A stretch of DNA of 64,000 nucleotides from assembly GCA_025612375.1 (NCBI GenBank), contig JAAXKN010000008.1:62001-126000 (forward strand), written 5' to 3'. Every line of letters begins with the position of its first letter. Position 1 is the first letter of the stretch. Shown piece by piece: positions 42,567 to 51,998 of this stretch. This DNA comes from Ignavibacteria bacterium (GTDB lineage: Bacteria; Bacteroidota; Ignavibacteria; Ignavibacteriales; SURF-24). The notes beneath the pieces are model-generated. The model was not told the origin of the DNA and made no database searches. It worked only from the letters and a program-made list of their open reading frames with translations. The translations under genes were made by a program, and so were the position numbers.

Positions 42567-43133
42567 TTACCTGAATTTAAGTGCCAGCCTGGGGTTGTCT
42601 TCTCTGATGAAGCAGAACAGTATGCCCAGTATTATCTGGAAGCCGGTAATAAAATTAAAATAAACTATTCCGCTATTCCATTCAAATATAACATTGATAA
42701 ACTTAAGCATCATGGATGTTTCATATGTAAGCAGCAACAGATGAAAAACCTGAATCATTCCGTTTTTATAAACGTAACTTACCGTGTACTTGAAAAGAAC
42801 AAAGACGATCATGAGGTGGATGATACCTATTAAGATTATCAGGTCTGAAGCCCGCAGGAAAGATATTGCAGCTATGTAAAGTATAAAAGCAGGAATGAGA
42901 TAAAGGAGTCTTAAATACCTGTTTTGCTGAGGTAGAGATAAAAAAAGACCTGCCGAGAATAAAATAAACAGTGGAATTGACCATTCCAGGTTAAAATAGC
43001 CCAATGCCATTGTGACCGGGTCAGAAAGGCCAAGTATCAGGAAGTAATAAAAAAACCTGCCCCTGAACTGCCTCAGGGGCGGGAAAATCCAGATAATTAC
43101 AGATAAATAAGTTATCAGTTTTGCAATAATCAT
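42567..43133 (-). CDS. Hypothetical integral membrane protein, 188 aa
   Basis: An unrecognised protein with about six hydrophobic segments spread over the whole length and few charged residues outside short loops, ending REDNPRLALKFR. I chose the ATG at 43133, which begins two bases after the upstream stop. A TTG at 43145 would overlap the upstream gene. It is probably co-transcribed with the exported protein before it and lies downstream of the two-component genes on the same strand. Confidence 0.75.
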   Translation of the reverse strand: MIIAKLITYLSVIIWIFPPLRQFRGRFFYYFLILGLSDPVTMALGYFNLEWSIPLFILFSAGLFLSLPQQNRYLRLLYLIPAFILYIAAISFLRASDLIILIGIIHLMIVFVLFKYTVSYVYKNGMIQVFHLLLLTYETSMMLKFINVIFEWNSGIVYFNFITGFQIILGILFCFIREDNPRLALKFR

Positions 43134-43135
43134 AT

Positions 43136-43588
43136 TTAGAAGCAATTAGGAGGACACAATTTGGCCATATCCATGGTGCTTTCGGCGTATGTAAGAGTAA
43201 CTACGTCCGCTCTTTTTTCAATGTGTACCTTATCCTCGCTTCCTCTGCTGAGCAGGTCCCTTACTACCGAGACACTGAATTTCCTGAATATTTCGGTAGG
43301 AAAAGAATTTTTCATCTGCCCATAATTAAATATCACCTTTTTTTTGCCGTTAGCAATGTAAAGGTCGTCGCTGTCGTAATTAAACATAACATAGTCGCCT
43401 GCCTGATCAAGAAGAGCCTTTACTGCATTAACGTCAATATCGAACTTCTTAAGCACGGGACCGAACATCTGGTCGGCCTCGGCCTTTGTGAATATTTTTC
43501 CAATGACTTCCTGTGCGGAAAGAAGGTTTGGGACAAAAAACATAAAAAATGAGAAAAATAATAAAGTTTTAAGTATTGGGGTTTTCAT
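43136..43588 (-). CDS. Hypothetical exported protein with C-terminal cysteine pair, 150 aa
   Basis: An unrecognised protein with a signal peptide (about 1-24, ending LLSAQ). The mature part contains an alternating hydrophobic pattern (YVMFNYDSDDLYIANGKKKVIFNY cut here) suggesting beta-strands, and it ends KLCPPNCF with two cysteines close to the C-terminus. The ATG at 43588 places the signal peptide first; an ATG at 43639 would precede it with a non-signal stretch. It overlaps nothing and is followed after two bases by the membrane protein gene. Confidence 0.75.
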   Translation of the reverse strand: MKTPILKTLLFFSFFMFFVPNLLSAQEVIGKIFTKAEADQMFGPVLKKFDIDVNAVKALLDQAGDYVMFNYDSDDLYIANGKKKVIFNYGQMKNSFPTEIFRKFSVSVVRDLLSRGSEDKVHIEKRADVVTLTYAESTMDMAKLCPPNCF

Positions 43589-43630
43589 CTCTTTTCCAGA
43601 TTTTAGTACGAAAAAATACGGAACTATTTG

Positions 43631-43649
43631 CCGCATCACTTTAATGCGG
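43631..43649. promoter_or_regulatory. Short CCGCAT inverted repeat upstream of the exported protein
   Basis: CCGCAT (43631-43636) and ATGCGG (43644-43649) form a six-bp inverted repeat with seven bases between, in the 139-bp gap between the response regulator and the exported protein gene. It may be an operator. Confidence 0.35.
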
Positions 43650-43727: not shown

Positions 43728-44393
43728 CTAAATAATCTTATTTAAAATAGCATATTTAATCATCTGGGAGGAAGACGATACTTTCAGCTTTTTCATAAGA
43801 CTGCCTCTGTGCGTTTCAACAGTTTTCCTGCTGATACCGAGTATTGAACCTATTTCAGCACTGCTAAGGCCTTCACAGACATACCTGAGGACTTCCAGCT
43901 CCCTGGGACTCAACTGCACATCCTCACGGCTAACGGTTTCTGTGTTATTTGCTGCAGAATACTTTTTAACAATTTCATCCAGCCTGCTTTCGGTGTAACC
44001 CTTTCCGAAATACTGGTCCCCCTGGTAGACAGACTTAATGGCGAGCACCAGTTCGCCTTTTACAATACTTTTATGCACAAGTCCTTTTCCACCTGCATTA
44101 AGCACCTGATAGACATATTCATCACCCTCATAAACTGATACAAAGAGTACTTTTGCTGCAGGATCTTTTTTTGTTATCTGTTTTACAGCCTCAATACCTG
44201 ACATTACAGGCATTGAAATATCCGTCAGAACTACGTCGGGATGTATCTCGGTGTATTTATTAATAAGATCACGCCCGTTATCCGCCTCGCCGACGACATA
44301 AATATCGTCAATGCTGTCCAGCAGGCTTACTATTCCGCCCCTGACCAGGTTGTGATCATCTGCAATAAGTACTCTTACAGGTCCTTCACTCAT
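43728..44393 (-). CDS. NarL/FixJ-type response regulator
   Basis: A 221-residue two-component regulator. The receiver domain has the acidic pair in ADDHN (Asp12, Asp13), the phosphorylation site Asp58 in LTDISMP and the conserved Lys in the SVYEGDEYV region. The C-terminal LuxR-type helix-turn-helix (about 155-215) has LSPRELEVLRYVCEGLSSAEI. The ATG at 44393 is one base after the kinase stop (TGAAATG), so the genes are coupled; an ATG at 44423 would lie inside the kinase gene. It is the obvious candidate to bind the palindromes at 45873-46238. Confidence 0.93.
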   Translation of the reverse strand: MSEGPVRVLIADDHNLVRGGIVSLLDSIDDIYVVGEADNGRDLINKYTEIHPDVVLTDISMPVMSGIEAVKQITKKDPAAKVLFVSVYEGDEYVYQVLNAGGKGLVHKSIVKGELVLAIKSVYQGDQYFGKGYTESRLDEIVKKYSAANNTETVSREDVQLSPRELEVLRYVCEGLSSAEIGSILGISRKTVETHRGSLMKKLKVSSSSQMIKYAILNKII

Positions 44394-44394
44394 T

Positions 44395-45582
44395 TCAATT
44401 CGCTCCCAGCGGGAAATCCGCAAATATAATTGTTCCGTCCTCAGGAGAAGAAGTTATTCTGAAAGTTCCGTTGTGGCTTTTTGCCCTCTCCTGCATATTC
44501 CTGATTCCCATCCCTTTTTTATTGCGGGGTTTATTCAGGTCAAACCCTATACCATCATCGGAAATAATGAGCCGGATTGAAGAGTTTTTTTTAAGGAGCT
44601 GAATATTAAATTCGCGGGCGCCTGAATATTTGATAATATTACTTAAGGCTTCCTGTACTATCCTGAAGATCGTGGTTTCAAGGCCCGAGTCCAGCCTTTC
44701 TTCCATATCTATAAAGTTTATGTTTCCCTGCATATTGCTCTTCCGCTTTATGTTGTCCACAAGCGTTATTAAAGCCGGTATAAGTCCTATTTCCACCAGT
44801 ATAATCGGTTTCAGGGAATGTGAAATTTCCTTCAGGTCGTTTGTAATCTGTCCTAATATGCGTGAGATTTCCAGGTATTCGGGTGAATTTTCATTTCCCG
44901 TAAGGTCCGTGAGTCTTTTCTGAAGATAGAGCCTCAGGAGAATAAGGTTCTGTCCTACGCCGTCGTGCAGTTCGCGTGAGATCCTTTGGCGTTCTTCTTC
45001 AATTTTATTCTGCAGGTGATTTGAGAACTCCTCCAGCTCCTTCTGAGATTTTTCCAGCTCCTCCTGCTGAGTCTTAAGCTGTGTGATGTCGTGCAGATAG
45101 ATCTGTGCGATATTTAAGTAGCCAATACCATTTATCTGGACGGAGTAGTGTTTTCCCATGGTTTCTTCATAGAACAGGAAGCTTTCATTTTTTTCAATAA
45201 AATTTTTCAGTTCAGGATGAAAAGATGGAAGTATGGTGCTTATATGTTTTCCGGTAAACTCATTAAAGCCTTTGCTGTTTGCCGCGGGATTGGTGAAAAT
45301 TATTTCGCCCGTGGAATCAATCCTCAAAAGTGGGTCGGGGTCAAGGTCTGCAAAAAGCGCCATAAGGCGTACATTCTGCATCTTCAGCCTTTTTTCCATA
45401 TTGGAGTAATTTCTCTGCTGTGGTATAACTACATACCGGGCGGTAAGATAGAGTATTACCAGCACCAGGACTGTAATCAGCAGTGAAAAGTTGACGGGGT
45501 TGCGGTAATCCTGCAGGAGCTTAAGATACTCCTTTACCTCGTCAAAAATATTACTTTGCAAAATGTAAAAAGCTAACTTCAT
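44395..45582 (-). CDS. Membrane sensor histidine kinase, NarX/DesK type (HisKA_3)
   Basis: A 395-residue kinase. One membrane helix is at about 33-53, followed by a PAS-like domain (about 75-165), a coiled coil (about 168-198), and the HisKA_3 dimerisation helix with phospho-acceptor His206 in ISRELHDGVGQN. The ATPase domain has the N box EALSNIIKYS and the G box DDGIGFD and GMGIRNM. There is no large extracytoplasmic domain, so it likely senses an intracellular or membrane signal. It follows the 76-aa gene after six bases and precedes its regulator. Confidence 0.93.
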   Translation of the reverse strand: MKLAFYILQSNIFDEVKEYLKLLQDYRNPVNFSLLITVLVLVILYLTARYVVIPQQRNYSNMEKRLKMQNVRLMALFADLDPDPLLRIDSTGEIIFTNPAANSKGFNEFTGKHISTILPSFHPELKNFIEKNESFLFYEETMGKHYSVQINGIGYLNIAQIYLHDITQLKTQQEELEKSQKELEEFSNHLQNKIEEERQRISRELHDGVGQNLILLRLYLQKRLTDLTGNENSPEYLEISRILGQITNDLKEISHSLKPIILVEIGLIPALITLVDNIKRKSNMQGNINFIDMEERLDSGLETTIFRIVQEALSNIIKYSGAREFNIQLLKKNSSIRLIISDDGIGFDLNKPRNKKGMGIRNMQERAKSHNGTFRITSSPEDGTIIFADFPLGAN

Positions 45583-45588
45583 TTGAGT

Positions 45589-45819
45589 TTAACTTACCAC
45601 CTTTTCAACGAAAGCGTCAATGAACTTGTTGATTTTTTTTGACGTATCTGCATTTTGGCCGGCGTAGTCGATTGCCTCATATACGGAAACCTCGTCCAGT
45701 TCAGGGATTTTTTCCTGAATTTCTTTTGACAGATAGTACTTGTCCTGATACTGTGCACAGTCGAAGTACTGTCCTTCAAGGATTTCGCGCAGGGCTTTTT
45801 TCATTTTCTGCTTATTCAT
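45589..45819 (-). CDS. Hypothetical 76-aa protein, first gene of the two-component operon
   Basis: An unrecognised small soluble protein (MNKQKMKKALREILEG...). It is mostly predicted helical, acidic-basic mixed, with no signal or membrane segment and one cysteine. The ATG at 45819 is preferred over a TTG three bases earlier. GGA lies about eight bases upstream. It begins the transcript that continues into the kinase six bases later, and its promoter (boxes at 45845-45872) carries an operator next to the -35 box. It may be an accessory or anti-kinase subunit. Confidence 0.7.
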   Translation of the reverse strand: MNKQKMKKALREILEGQYFDCAQYQDKYYLSKEIQEKIPELDEVSVYEAIDYAGQNADTSKKINKFIDAFVEKVVS

Positions 45820-45844
45820 CAAAACATTCCAATATCAGAATGCA

Positions 45845-45872
45845 AACATACAGTTTCCTGTGAGAAAATCAA
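45845..45872 (-). promoter_or_regulatory. Predicted promoter of the 76-aa/kinase/regulator operon
   Basis: On the minus strand TTGATT (45867-45872) and TATGTT (45845-45850) are separated by 16 bp. The -35 box directly touches operator S0 at 45873. The expected start of transcription is near 45838, about 19 bases before the ATG. Confidence 0.6.
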
Positions 45873-45907
45873 TCGGTAGAATTACTGAGGGTCAGTAATT
45901 CTACTGA
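45873..45907. promoter_or_regulatory. Operators S0 and S1 (TCAGTA-N4-TACTGA) on the kinase side
   Basis: S0 is TCGGTA-GAAT-TACTGA (45873-45888, one mismatch) and S1 is TCAGTA-ATTC-TACTGA (45892-45907, perfect). Their centres are 19 bp apart. S0 adjoins the minus-strand -35 box. Confidence 0.8.
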
Positions 45908-45911
45908 GTTT

Positions 45912-45927
45912 AAAAGTATACACTTTT
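45912..45927. promoter_or_regulatory. Palindrome B1 (AAAAGT-N4-ACTTTT)
   Basis: AAAAGT-ATAC-ACTTTT at 45912-45927, centre 20 bp from S1. It is the exact reverse complement of B2 at 46170-46185. Confidence 0.7.
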
Positions 45928-45974
45928 ACTTGCTTTGTGCGAATTTAGCCCTTTTCCCAACGTTATTTCTTAAA

Positions 45975-45991
45975 TCAGTATTTTTTACTGA
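45975..45991. promoter_or_regulatory. Operator S2 (five-base spacer variant)
   Basis: TCAGTA-TTTTT-TACTGA, perfect half-sites but a spacer of five instead of four. It lies in the interior of the region. Confidence 0.65.
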
Positions 45992-46097
45992 CTGGCGGAA
46001 AAATCTGATTCTCTTTGATTATCCTTTATAGGTTTACTGCTTTTTCTTGCTGCCGGGCCTGAAAAAAGTGAAAAATTTTTTTTCAGGATTGGGTGAC

Positions 46098-46113
46098 TCA
46101 GTAAAAATACTGA
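46098..46113. promoter_or_regulatory. Operator S3
   Basis: TCAGTA-AAAA-TACTGA, within a longer ten-plus-ten palindrome (46096-46115 including AC and GT). The left flank GGGTGAC is shared with S4 read in reverse. Confidence 0.75.
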
Positions 46114-46169
46114 GTTCTTTAAAAAGCTTTGAAAACAAGCTGAATTCACACAAATTTATTGCGCTTTTT

Positions 46170-46205
46170 AAAAGTGTATACTTTTAAACTCAGTAAAAAT
46201 ACTGA
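46170..46205. promoter_or_regulatory. Palindrome B2 with operator S4
   Basis: B2 is AAAAGT-GTAT-ACTTTT (46170-46185) and S4 is TCAGTA-AAAA-TACTGA (46190-46205), centres 20 bp apart. The 36-bp block is the inverted copy of 45892-45927 with two differences, both in the S spacer. Confidence 0.8.
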
Positions 46206-46222
46206 GTCACCCCCCTTAAAAA

Positions 46223-46238
46223 TCAGTATTTATACTGA
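46223..46238. promoter_or_regulatory. Operator S5 on the TIR side
   Basis: TCAGTA-TTTA-TACTGA ends one base before the plus-strand -35 box TTGACA. Its centre is about 43 bp before the predicted start of transcription, a class II activator position, and 33 bp (about three helical turns) from S4. Confidence 0.8.
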
Positions 46239-46267
46239 TTGACAGACCTTAAGTAATAGCTTATCTT
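46239..46267 (+). promoter_or_regulatory. Predicted promoter of the TIR operon
   Basis: TTGACA (46239-46244), a 17-bp spacer and TATCTT (46262-46267) make a good sigma-70-like promoter. The -35 box touches operator S5. A leader of about 100 bases would precede the TIR start codon. Confidence 0.72.
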
Positions 46268-46372
46268 TGCCACAGGTAATTAAAAGACGGTTTCCCCCTT
46301 CTTTTTCTAAGGAAATCAGGCTTCCCGTCTTAAAAAATTAAACATGAAACTGTAAAATAAACAGGTGCCTCA

Positions 46373-46840
46373 ATGGTAAGCTTGTATTTTTCTTATTCGC
46401 ATAAAGACCACCTCCTCAGAGATGAAATGGAAATCCGCCTCTCGGAACTCAAAAGCCAGGGAATTATTGATGAGTGGTTCGACAGCCGCGACCCTGCCTG
46501 CAGCGCAAATAATGAAGCAACTAACCTCTACTTTGAAACTGCCGATATAATACTGCTTCTGGTAAGACCTTATTTTGTTGCTTCCGACAGCAGGTACAAC
46601 TATGAAATGGAAAGAGCCATGAGAAAGCATGAAAACGGCGAGGCCAGGGTGATACCTGTTATTCTGGATCCCGGACACTGGCAGGGGACACCAACCGGTG
46701 AAACGATGCTTGAACTGTTCCCCGGAAATCCTGAGGCCAACGGCGACATATTTCGTGAAATAACCTCTGCAATCTGTGCCGCGGTAGAGGAAATTAGAGG
46801 CTCGTCACTTCCTGAACTGAAACTCGCAGGAGAGGCTTAA
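46373..46840 (+). CDS. Stand-alone TIR-domain protein
   Basis: A 155-residue protein that consists almost entirely of a bacterial TIR domain: LYFSYSHKD at the start, a BB-loop region around 33-50, ADIILLLVRPYFVASDSRYNYEMERAM, and RVIPVILDPGHW. Glu78 in YNYEMERA aligns with the position of the catalytic glutamate of NAD-cleaving TIR enzymes. The usual Gly in the BB loop is replaced (DPACSANNEA), so activity is uncertain. There is no fused sensor domain. It is followed after six bases by the 154-aa gene. Possible roles are NAD hydrolysis, nucleotide signal production or scaffolding. Confidence 0.85.
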   Translation: MVSLYFSYSHKDHLLRDEMEIRLSELKSQGIIDEWFDSRDPACSANNEATNLYFETADIILLLVRPYFVASDSRYNYEMERAMRKHENGEARVIPVILDPGHWQGTPTGETMLELFPGNPEANGDIFREITSAICAAVEEIRGSSLPELKLAGEA

Positions 46841-46846
46841 AAAACA

Positions 46847-47311
46847 ATGATTATAAAAGATCAGTACCTTATAAGCTCCGCCGGCTTCAGGCCGGGCATG
46901 AGCATAATATTCAGTAAGAAGAACAAAAACGATTTTATCCGCGCTGCATACATATATGCTGCCGACTATTTTAACGACTCATTAAGAAAACTGCACCTGG
47001 AATTTCCCCAAATTGAAACCGCCTTTTGCTCCCTTGACGAAAGCCACTTTATGGCATCTGTATATTTGAACGGTACTGCTGTAAGCAGCTGCAGGATCTG
47101 GTTCGGAGGAAATAACAGAATAACTTTCCTGACCGAATGCTCTGTGCCGGAGGGCTCTCATTGCGATTTTCTTGCCGCGGAGGAGGAAAAAGGAAGACTG
47201 TTCCTGAAATCCCTTCCTGATATCGAAAAGGAAAATAAGCTGACAATTAAACTCAGCGCCGAATACCTCTGGAAGAAATTTACTTTCCCATTAAAGAATA
47301 TTTCAAATTAA
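46847..47311 (+). CDS. Hypothetical protein, 154 aa, second gene of the TIR operon
   Basis: I do not recognise this protein. It has no signal or membrane segment. The sequence mixes helices in the first half (NDFIRAAYIYAADYFNDSL) with alternating hydrophobic strands (FMASVYLNGTAVSSCRIWFGG, RITFLTECSV) and ends in a charged helix. The six-base gap after the TIR stop indicates co-translation and a shared role. Confidence 0.72.
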   Translation: MIIKDQYLISSAGFRPGMSIIFSKKNKNDFIRAAYIYAADYFNDSLRKLHLEFPQIETAFCSLDESHFMASVYLNGTAVSSCRIWFGGNNRITFLTECSVPEGSHCDFLAAEEEKGRLFLKSLPDIEKENKLTIKLSAEYLWKKFTFPLKNISN

Positions 47312-47331: not shown

Positions 47332-47526
47332 ATGAAAGATTACGCCAACTACACAAACTGGAATCCTTCAAAGGGCGACTATATTAAAAGCACCCTCATC
47401 GAACAAAGAAATCTGAAGAAGAAAAGCCGCAGGAAGATAACTTTATTATCCGGCACCTTCATGGGCATTCTTTTACTCATTGCTTTGATAGTTGCTTTAA
47501 GTAAAAATACTGCGCTGTTTGGCTGA
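47332..47526 (+). CDS. Hypothetical 64-aa single-pass membrane protein
   Basis: A small protein with a soluble N-terminal half, a basic stretch (LKKKSRRK, about 29-36) and one membrane helix (about 37-58), so the N-terminus is predicted cytoplasmic. It starts 20 bases after the 154-aa gene. It could anchor the TIR or 154-aa protein to the inner membrane. The end of the gene contains a weak match (47498-47513, two mismatches) to the TCAGTA-N4-TACTGA palindrome. Confidence 0.68.
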   Translation: MKDYANYTNWNPSKGDYIKSTLIEQRNLKKKSRRKITLLSGTFMGILLLIALIVALSKNTALFG

Positions 47527-50391: not shown

Positions 50392-50898
50392 TTATTTGCT
50401 CATCCCCTTCCATCTATTTATCCTGCTTTCAACTTCAGAAGCCGGCAGCCACATACTATTTTCAGCTATAAACTCCAGCTTTTCAGCAGCAGCAGACGGA
50501 TCCATAATTTTATTCTTTACCAGTTCATCCAGTATCCAGATCATTCCTTTTACCTCAATCCCATTCCTCGTAGCAAACGCTCTTAAGGCCCTGTCACTGC
50601 TTAATAATATTCCATTTTTTATTTGGGTCAGTAAAAATACTGAACAATCGGCATCAGAAAGTGACCTGTTCTCAGAGAGTTCAAATATTTGGGCAACTTC
50701 CTCGCCGTTGTATGAATAGATATTTATCCTTTTATCCTTGACGTACTTGCCGATTTTTCTTTTTTGCCCTGTATCCTCAATCTCATTAATAACAAAATCA
50801 CTTGTCCAGAATTCATAATCCAGCTTTAGGCATAAATCCATCAGTTCAGAATCCAATAAGCTGAAAATTATATTGGCATCTTTAACTATTATTCTCAT
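50392..50898 (-). CDS. PIN-domain protein
   Basis: A 168-residue protein. The four acidic positions of the PIN nuclease fold are visible as Asp7 (VKDANI), Glu39 (INEIE), Asp84 (SDADCSV) and Asp102 (SSDRAL), so it probably cleaves RNA with Mg2+ or Mn2+. It overlaps the stop of the upstream HTH-ImmA gene by four bases (ATGA at 50895-50898), which points to a linked pair. Such PIN/ImmA pairs resemble toxin-antitoxin or phage-regulator modules. A perfect copy of the TCAGTA-N4-TACTGA palindrome lies in its coding sequence (50628-50643). Confidence 0.87.
   Translation of the reverse strand: MRIIVKDANIIFSLLDSELMDLCLKLDYEFWTSDFVINEIEDTGQKRKIGKYVKDKRINIYSYNGEEVAQIFELSENRSLSDADCSVFLLTQIKNGILLSSDRALRAFATRNGIEVKGMIWILDELVKNKIMDPSAAAEKLEFIAENSMWLPASEVESRINRWKGMSK
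50628..50643. promoter_or_regulatory. Isolated TCAGTA-N4-TACTGA palindrome inside the PIN gene
   Basis: TCAGTAAAAATACTGA, identical over all 16 bases to sites S3 and S4. It is in frame within codons for FSVFLLT on the minus strand. Whether it binds anything is unknown. Confidence 0.5.
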
Positions 50899-51947
50899 AA
50901 TATCGGATTATGCTCCAGATCAAATTTATCTATTCCAACATTTGCTAAAACGGCGGCTTTACTTATAGTGATTATGCCTTCAGCAAGTGCTCTGGACAAT
51001 AGTTTTTTAAACCTTTTGGGATTTTCCTCTCCTGCATACTTACCGGGTTCATTTTTAGTCCATCCGTGCTTTGAGAATTTTATACATACCTCCTTATATT
51101 TGGAGGCAGTTATAATCTCCAGCTCATATGCCCGCCTGATTATTGCCTGTAGTGAGATGCCATATTCTTCCTTTATGGCACACAGTTCGTCCAGGCGGAA
51201 ATAATTTCTTTTCTGTCCAAATTCCCTGAATAATACTTCCTTTGGAAGCAGCAGCGCACCTGAAAAACTATGGCAAAGCCGTTCTTTTTCTTTTGCATCA
51301 CCGGATTCAATATTTAATAAAATATGGGCCAGCTCATGTGCTGCCGTAAACCTTTTGCGCGTCAGGTCCTGAATATTTTTATTTACAACTATTAAAGAAT
51401 AATCTTCCGTCCTTGCTGCAAGGCCGTCAAAAGTCTCAGGAGCATCAGCTTCATAAACTTTTAATTCATTATCCTCAAGCGTTTCAATCAGGTTTGGCAT
51501 GGAATCTAACCCCAGCTTCCATTCTTCACGGAGTTTAACTGCAGCAGCTTCTGCATCGGCCAGACTTTTTATTTTAATGTCCTTTAACGGGTTTACAAAT
51601 TTTTTATCCATACCCAGCAAACATTCCAATTCCAGGTATCTTTCCAGATAATCTTTGGCAATTTCCTTGATCGATTTTTCCTCTTTAACCGTCAGTTTAG
51701 ACTTTTTCCTAAACTCAAATTCATTTACCGGAGCATCAATTCTTCTGAAAAAGTAATCAGTTTTAACATTAAGCGCCCTTGACAATGCAATTAAAGTAGT
51801 ACTATCCGGTTTCCTCAGGCCCTTCTCGTAATTCTGCAGAGCCTGTTTGGTTACTTTTCTGCCTATTGAAGCTGCCAGATCCTCCAAAGACAGCCCGGCC
51901 ATTATTCTGGCCGATTTCAGACGATTTCCAAATAATTCTTCAAACAT
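50895..51947 (-). CDS. XRE-type HTH regulator fused to ImmA/IrrE metallopeptidase
   Basis: A 350-residue protein. An N-terminal helix-turn-helix (about 5-60: SARIMAGLSLEDLAASIGRKVTKQALQNYEKG) is joined through a helical linker to an ImmA/IrrE (COG2856) zinc metallopeptidase with HELAH at 204-208. Such proteins sense stress and cleave a partner repressor. I chose the ATG at 51947 because AGGGAGG lies just before it; a TTG at 51977 would sit inside the promoter. It is translationally coupled to the PIN gene. The promoter lies within an inverted repeat, suggesting autoregulation. Confidence 0.92.
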   Translation of the reverse strand: MFEELFGNRLKSARIMAGLSLEDLAASIGRKVTKQALQNYEKGLRKPDSTTLIALSRALNVKTDYFFRRIDAPVNEFEFRKKSKLTVKEEKSIKEIAKDYLERYLELECLLGMDKKFVNPLKDIKIKSLADAEAAAVKLREEWKLGLDSMPNLIETLEDNELKVYEADAPETFDGLAARTEDYSLIVVNKNIQDLTRKRFTAAHELAHILLNIESGDAKEKERLCHSFSGALLLPKEVLFREFGQKRNYFRLDELCAIKEEYGISLQAIIRRAYELEIITASKYKEVCIKFSKHGWTKNEPGKYAGEENPKRFKKLLSRALAEGIITISKAAVLANVGIDKFDLEHNPIL

Positions 51948-51960
51948 ATAACCTCCCTTA

Positions 51961-51998
51961 TGTTGACAATTTAGCATAAATAGTTGTTTTTGTCAACA
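51961..51998 (-). promoter_or_regulatory. Promoter and operator of the HTH-ImmA/PIN pair
   Basis: On the minus strand TTGACA (51991-51996), a 17-bp spacer and TAAATT (51968-51973) form a sigma-70-like promoter. TGTTGACA (51961-51968) and TGTCAACA (51991-51998) are an eight-bp inverted repeat covering the -35 and -10 ends, a good position for repression by the HTH protein itself. Confidence 0.68.

Follow-up and report, generated by a model that had tools for sequence, protein, structure and literature searches.

The heptamers of NarL and NarP have the sequence TACYYMT and a 7-2-7 arrangement. Within the NarL family, the ComA box of Bacillus subtilis (TTGCGG-N4-CCGCAA) is a canonical 6-4-6 inverted repeat (PMC4797271); the lactococcal CesR box has the sequence TCAGHCTnnAGDCTGA, and LiaR of S. 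mutans requires an adjacent stretch of A residues (PMC4447274). Here we have analyzed a related arrangement in an Ignavibacteria bacterium, within a stretch of 64,000 nucleotides hereafter called the window. An array of six nearly identical 16-bp palindromes spans positions 45873-46238, between two divergent operons that encode a two-component system and a TIR-domain protein. From its sequence features, this array quite probably serves as the control region, in both directions, of a LiaR/NarL-type regulator, which would exert class II activation on both operons.

Architecture of the Palindrome Array

The array comprises four exact copies of TCAGTA-N4-TACTGA and two variants, of which one has a single mismatch and the other a spacer of five nucleotides; direct reading and a scan of the window confirmed all six at the positions given in the original prediction. 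Palindrome 1 (45873-45888) reads TCGGTA-GAAT-TACTGA, where a G replaces an A of the left half (TCAGTA-ATTC-TACCGA on the minus strand), and is the putative proximal operator of the minus-strand promoter. Palindrome 2 (45892-45907) is exact and lies 19 bp, or about two turns, from palindrome 1, while palindrome 3 (45975-45991), TCAGTA-TTTTT-TACTGA, has the five-nucleotide spacer. Palindromes 4 (46098-46113), 5 (46190-46205) and 6 (46223-46238) are exact; the fourth has the extended form ACTCAGTA-N4-TACTGAGT, the fifth precedes the sixth by 33 bp, or about three turns, and the sixth, AATCAGTA-N4-TACTGATT, is the putative proximal operator of the plus-strand promoter. The six belong to a larger inverted arrangement, whose two arms, at 45892-45928 and 46169-46205, show 95% complementarity over 37 nt. 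Each promoter also has one copy of a second palindrome of 18 bp, TAAAAGTRTAYACTTTTA, located three bases behind the distal TCAGTA site (left copy at 45911-45928, right mirror copy at 46169-46186). No further copies of it were found in the window beyond this mirror pair, which possibly represents a site for another factor.

The original argument that such a palindrome should hardly recur by chance is borne out by the counts. When up to two mismatches are allowed, the window contains 12 matches versus 1.6 expected, a number that no shuffled sequence reached. The entire genome of 5.2 Mb has 12 exact sites, five of which are in the window, versus two for the reversed control pattern; the hundreds of unrelated sites that had been named as speaking against the proposal are thus not seen. 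Of the 12, those at C8:112628 (window position 50628) and C9:88823 fall within ORFs; two such sites equal the number expected by chance and are consistent with a chance background. The former, at 50628-50643 of the window, is an exact TCAGTA-N4-TACTGA within the ORF of a PIN-type protein. A literature search with the motif strings found no use of them as a binding site.

Promoter Geometry

The -7 consensus of Bacteroidota promoters is TAnnTTTG (PMC7366714). The position of TAnnTT with respect to the palindrome was analyzed in 87 sites, 59 intergenic and 28 coding. Of the intergenic sites, 29 have it beginning 22 nt beyond the palindrome and six have it at 23 nt, versus about two per other position (binomial 3e-25 for the fixed-spacing excess), whereas none of the coding sites has it at 22 or 23 nt. 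The consensus of the 29 sites with 22-nt spacing is AAAAA-TCAGTA-N4-TACTGA-TTYTTTT, followed by TATATT, and a relaxed search upstream of histidine kinase (HK) genes indicated that the promoter-proximal half TACTGA is better conserved than the distal half. The same palindrome is found at a fixed promoter distance across the whole bacterial order.

On the minus strand of the window, palindrome 2 is followed by three bases, palindrome 1 and, 22 nt further, TATGTTTG (45843-45850), the putative -7 box of the two-component operon promoter, which matches TAnnTTTG. On the plus strand, palindrome 5 is followed by 17 bases and palindrome 6, with TTGACA directly after it and TATCTTTG (46262-46269), the putative -7 box of the TIR operon promoter, starting at 23 nt. 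The control region is thereby composed of two predicted promoters that are mirror images of each other, placed back to back. Given the spacing of 22-23 nt, the centre of the palindrome would lie near -42, an estimate based on the box, which is taken as -12 to -7 with the palindrome then extending from about -50 to -35 of a predicted start site. Such a centre near -41.5, combined with fixed spacing, would be the position of a class II activator at start sites so predicted.

The Two Divergent Operons

The first gene of the minus-strand operon is an ORF of 76 aa (45589-45819), whose homologues precede the HK gene also in genomes G074, G024 and G118 and in the C13 copy of the present genome; it has no match among curated families (NCBIfam) and may assist the two-component system as an accessory protein. 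It is followed by the sensor HK (44395-45582), with HisKA_3 (2.6e-9), HATPase_c (3.6e-11) and weak PAS matches, and by the NarL/LiaR-type response regulator that is the proposed binder (43728-44423). The latter contains a receiver domain (Response_reg, 3e-25) and a C-terminal GerE helix-turn-helix (4e-20), and together with the adjoining gene for a HisKA_3 kinase this is the make-up of NarL/FixJ-type regulators. The operon continues with a 167-aa protein (43136-43639), of a family that recurs beside HK and regulator in five genomes, and with a hydrophobic protein of 192 aa (42567-43145), which has no Pfam match and by eye resembles the tandem 190- and 196-aa proteins after the C13 regulator. 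A 180-aa homologue of the 167-aa protein in G118 has its own palindrome pair in the promoter (L130:3489-3617; G118:C8) and is therefore likely to be a direct target.

On the plus strand, the TIR-domain protein (46373-46840, TIR_2) matches residues 1-114 of ThsB and the following 154-aa protein (46847-47311) matches residues 179-316, corresponding to the second half of a ThsB-like protein; the E values of the ThsB model for these consecutive ORFs are 2e-35 and 7e-18. Both products therefore resemble ThsB of the Thoeris system, from which they differ in being split over two ORFs. A 64-aa ORF with a hydrophobic stretch (47332-47526) is a possible third gene of this operon, and no ThsA candidate was recognized by reading the ORFs from 46.3 to 50.3 kb. 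A fused 318-aa homologue of the split pair is present in G145 (L235:952-1908). TIR homologues occur in only three of the 164 genomes of the order, this one included, and the palindrome is absent at those of the other two, G145 and G149; control of the TIR genes thus appears local to this lineage. At 50392-51977 of the window, 3 kb from the TIR genes, lie the genes of a PIN-type protein and an ImmA/IrrE-XRE-type protein, and a pair of the same types adjoins the fused TIR gene of G145 (L235:2214-3319). The recurrence of this pair beside TIR genes in two genomes suggests a travelling module.

Association of the Motif with the HK/Regulator Family

The genome carries four paralogues of the HK/regulator pair, in the window (C8), C13, C24 and C65. 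The HK promoters of the first three have an exact or one-mismatch palindrome, which in C13 and C24 is exact and followed at 22 nt by TATATTTG and TATATTTAG, respectively; the C65 promoter has GTAGTA-N4-TACTAC in the same place, 22 nt from TATATTTGC. A relaxed search of the genome (GTA-N4-TAC, 25-26 nt, TAnnTTTG) returned just four matches, one at the TIR promoter and the other three at promoters of HK operons. Across the 164 genomes of the order, hand-summed exact sites amount to 90 versus 13 for the control. Seven other genomes (G001, G019, G020, G024, G026, G074 and G118) have exact sites within 400 bp upstream of HKs of the family, versus about 0.01 expected by our own arithmetic (1 kb for each HK, with about 78 sites, 92 HKs and 585 Mb); G001 has just one exact site and one HK, the site lying 297 bp upstream of the HK. 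The combination of GTA-N4-TAC and a -7 box is found upstream of 19 of the 83 HKs of the order, versus 0.35 expected. For the other 64 this search found none, and their regulators may therefore use other motifs.

Within a few kilobases of promoter-linked sites, the HK family is encoded in 10 genomes and the regulator family in 9, more than any other; next come secreted proteins of the T9SS type, a lipoprotein family, the families of the 76-aa ORF and of the 167-aa protein, and a membrane protein family. The candidacy of the adjacent NarL-type regulator, proposed from the window alone, is strongly supported by this tracking of the family in both genome and order, and its predicted binding to the palindromes can be considered well supported at the level of sequence. 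As to whether the motif always lies near the regulator, it is found at the promoters of three of the four paralogues in the genome, but a number of promoter-linked sites have no HK in their vicinity, and in G115 and G127, which also carry sites, there is no HK at E ≤ 1e-45.

The presence of the motif is clustered on the phylogenetic tree of the regulators (12 changes versus 17.6 after shuffling). A correlation between recognition helix and motif (Fisher p 0.0005) disappeared on independent pairs, when relatedness was considered, and no residue-level link between regulator and motif was established. The extended palindrome AATCAGTA-N4-TACTGATT occurs in about 20 places when the 391 genomes of the class are searched; of 21 sites, 19 belong to the order, and the control gave no match. 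A class-wide search for half palindromes was too unspecific for interpretation. A search of genome contigs for related loci produced one distant match in Chloroflexota.

The control region has its right half repeated at C2:102912-103097 (L026:5913-6097), with 77% identity over 186 nt. This copy fronts a putative lipoprotein of 356 aa and has three palindromes, with a -7 box at 23 nt by eye. Upstream scanning of homologues of this lipoprotein found an exact promoter-linked site only in G024, in front of a distant homologue, besides the C2 gene; the family is thus not a uniformly conserved target. In two homologous promoters, those of C50 and C57 (L028:4037-4052 and L029:4013-4028), TTGAC comes after TCAGTA-N4-TACTGA, and about 16 nt behind lies another palindrome, GGTA-N4-TACC. 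They precede genes for secreted proteins, of which that of C50 has a type IX sorting domain and that of C57 matches it weakly. Sorting domains of this type and the TAnnTTTG boxes suggest a bacterium of the Bacteroidota type, probably an ignavibacterium, in keeping with the lineage of the genome.

Proposed Mechanism and Alternative Explanations

In the mechanism that we propose, the HK, responding to a presumed signal, would phosphorylate the regulator, and phosphorylated dimers would bind the 6-4-6 palindromes, phosphorylation presumably being needed for this binding. On the proximal palindrome at each end (centre about -42, 22-23 nt from TAnnTTTG) the dimer would stimulate RNA polymerase in the manner of a class II activator, and cooperative binding would be provided for by the next palindrome, located 19 or 33 bp further back. 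One end would drive the regulator's own operon, from the 76-aa ORF through HK and regulator to the 167- and 192-aa proteins, and the other the TIR operon. It is a further and rather doubtful step to suppose that the two-component system directly induces the split ThsB-like TIR protein from the shared bidirectional promoter, with an envelope-stress-type signal arming a TIR anti-phage response before or during infection.

A site so near the core promoter could repress instead. The same regulator would then be mainly a repressor, its dimers covering the -33 region and blocking RNA polymerase at both operons until phosphorylation or dephosphorylation; the palindrome does end at about -35, beside the -33 element, and six sites could permit looping between both ends. 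We consider this unlikely, for the fixed spacing and the centre near -42 fit class II activation, and at most promoter-linked sites the palindrome is followed by TTYTTTTT and no TTG -33 element can be recognized there, as expected for an activator replacing that element. Relatives of NarL and LiaR with 16-bp inverted repeats are, moreover, mostly activators. The sites far from HK/regulator pairs, and those of the two genomes without a strong HK match, would be accommodated by a different regulator, encoded elsewhere, with the two-component family among its targets. This is quite unlikely, because no regulator family besides HK and regulator recurs next to promoter-linked sites, the diverged C65 paralogue has a correspondingly diverged palindrome, and the shape of the site suits the family of the adjacent regulator.

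The C2 copy and the mutual inversion of left and right arms, together with single-strand folding far better than that of shuffles (z -12), recall mobile or repetitive DNA of the MITE or REP type, in which the palindromes would be terminal or internal inverted repeats. We have rejected this very improbable reading, since one other copy, and a partial one, exists in 5.2 Mb instead of many copies, and since between genera the spacing from palindrome to box is common but the flanks are not; the sites also track one gene family, and a duplicated promoter region in C2 is compatible with activation by the adjacent regulator. RNA hairpins or terminators in transcripts are extremely improbable too: the stems are self-complementary and some are followed by T runs, but their fixed position is upstream of -7 boxes and between divergent genes, where there is nothing to terminate.

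Class II activation by the adjacent regulator would provide a testable operator/promoter grammar, AAAAATCAGTA-N4-TACTGATTTTT, 22-23 nt and TATATTTG, for a two-component family in a poorly studied order, so that regulons may become readable from sequence. A promoter of the Bacteroidota type would here be paired with class II spacing, and in this genome a two-component system would probably control a TIR/ThsB-like operon. The original prediction did not include the fixed distance to the promoter, the bidirectional layout, the second copy of the control region or the lack of conservation of the TIR link.

Comparison with Known Systems

The nearest solved relatives of the regulator are chains named VraR (3e-33), followed by NarL (2e-27). 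Among the 25 families shown for it there is no LiaR/VraR equivalog, the best being MctR, below cut-off; the HK matches the LiaS model with 3e-30, far below the cut-off (105 versus 450 bits), and no LiaF was recognized in the two-component operon of the window. With the CesR/LiaR box of Firmicutes (LiaSR, cell-envelope stress) the palindromes share the 16-bp inverted repeat, the TCAG...CTGA ends and the flanking A stretch, and autoregulation of the two-component operon, here proposed, would be a further likeness. They differ from that box, and fall outside its consensus, in having an inner TA-N4-TA instead of HCTnnAGD, and the system as a whole differs in its Bacteroidota-type -7 box, its set of targets and its 76-aa first gene. 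The ComA box is similar in being a 6-4-6 repeat upstream of the RNA polymerase site with second sites nearby (PMC4797271), yet its half-site sequence is different and ComA also uses direct repeats, none of which was seen here. What is common with NarL and NarP is the GerE/LuxR domain family, whereas half-site, spacing and symmetry are not. The new specificity originally claimed for the regulator thus holds with respect to the NarL heptamer, but has to be tempered by the length, ends and A-tract flank in common with the CesR/LiaR box and by the VraR-type nearest relatives. In view of the traits shared with LiaR and ComA, and of curated models that are not reached, the protein would best be described as a NarL/LiaR-type regulator that has a half-site of its own, being neither a LiaR orthologue nor the bearer of a wholly new specificity.
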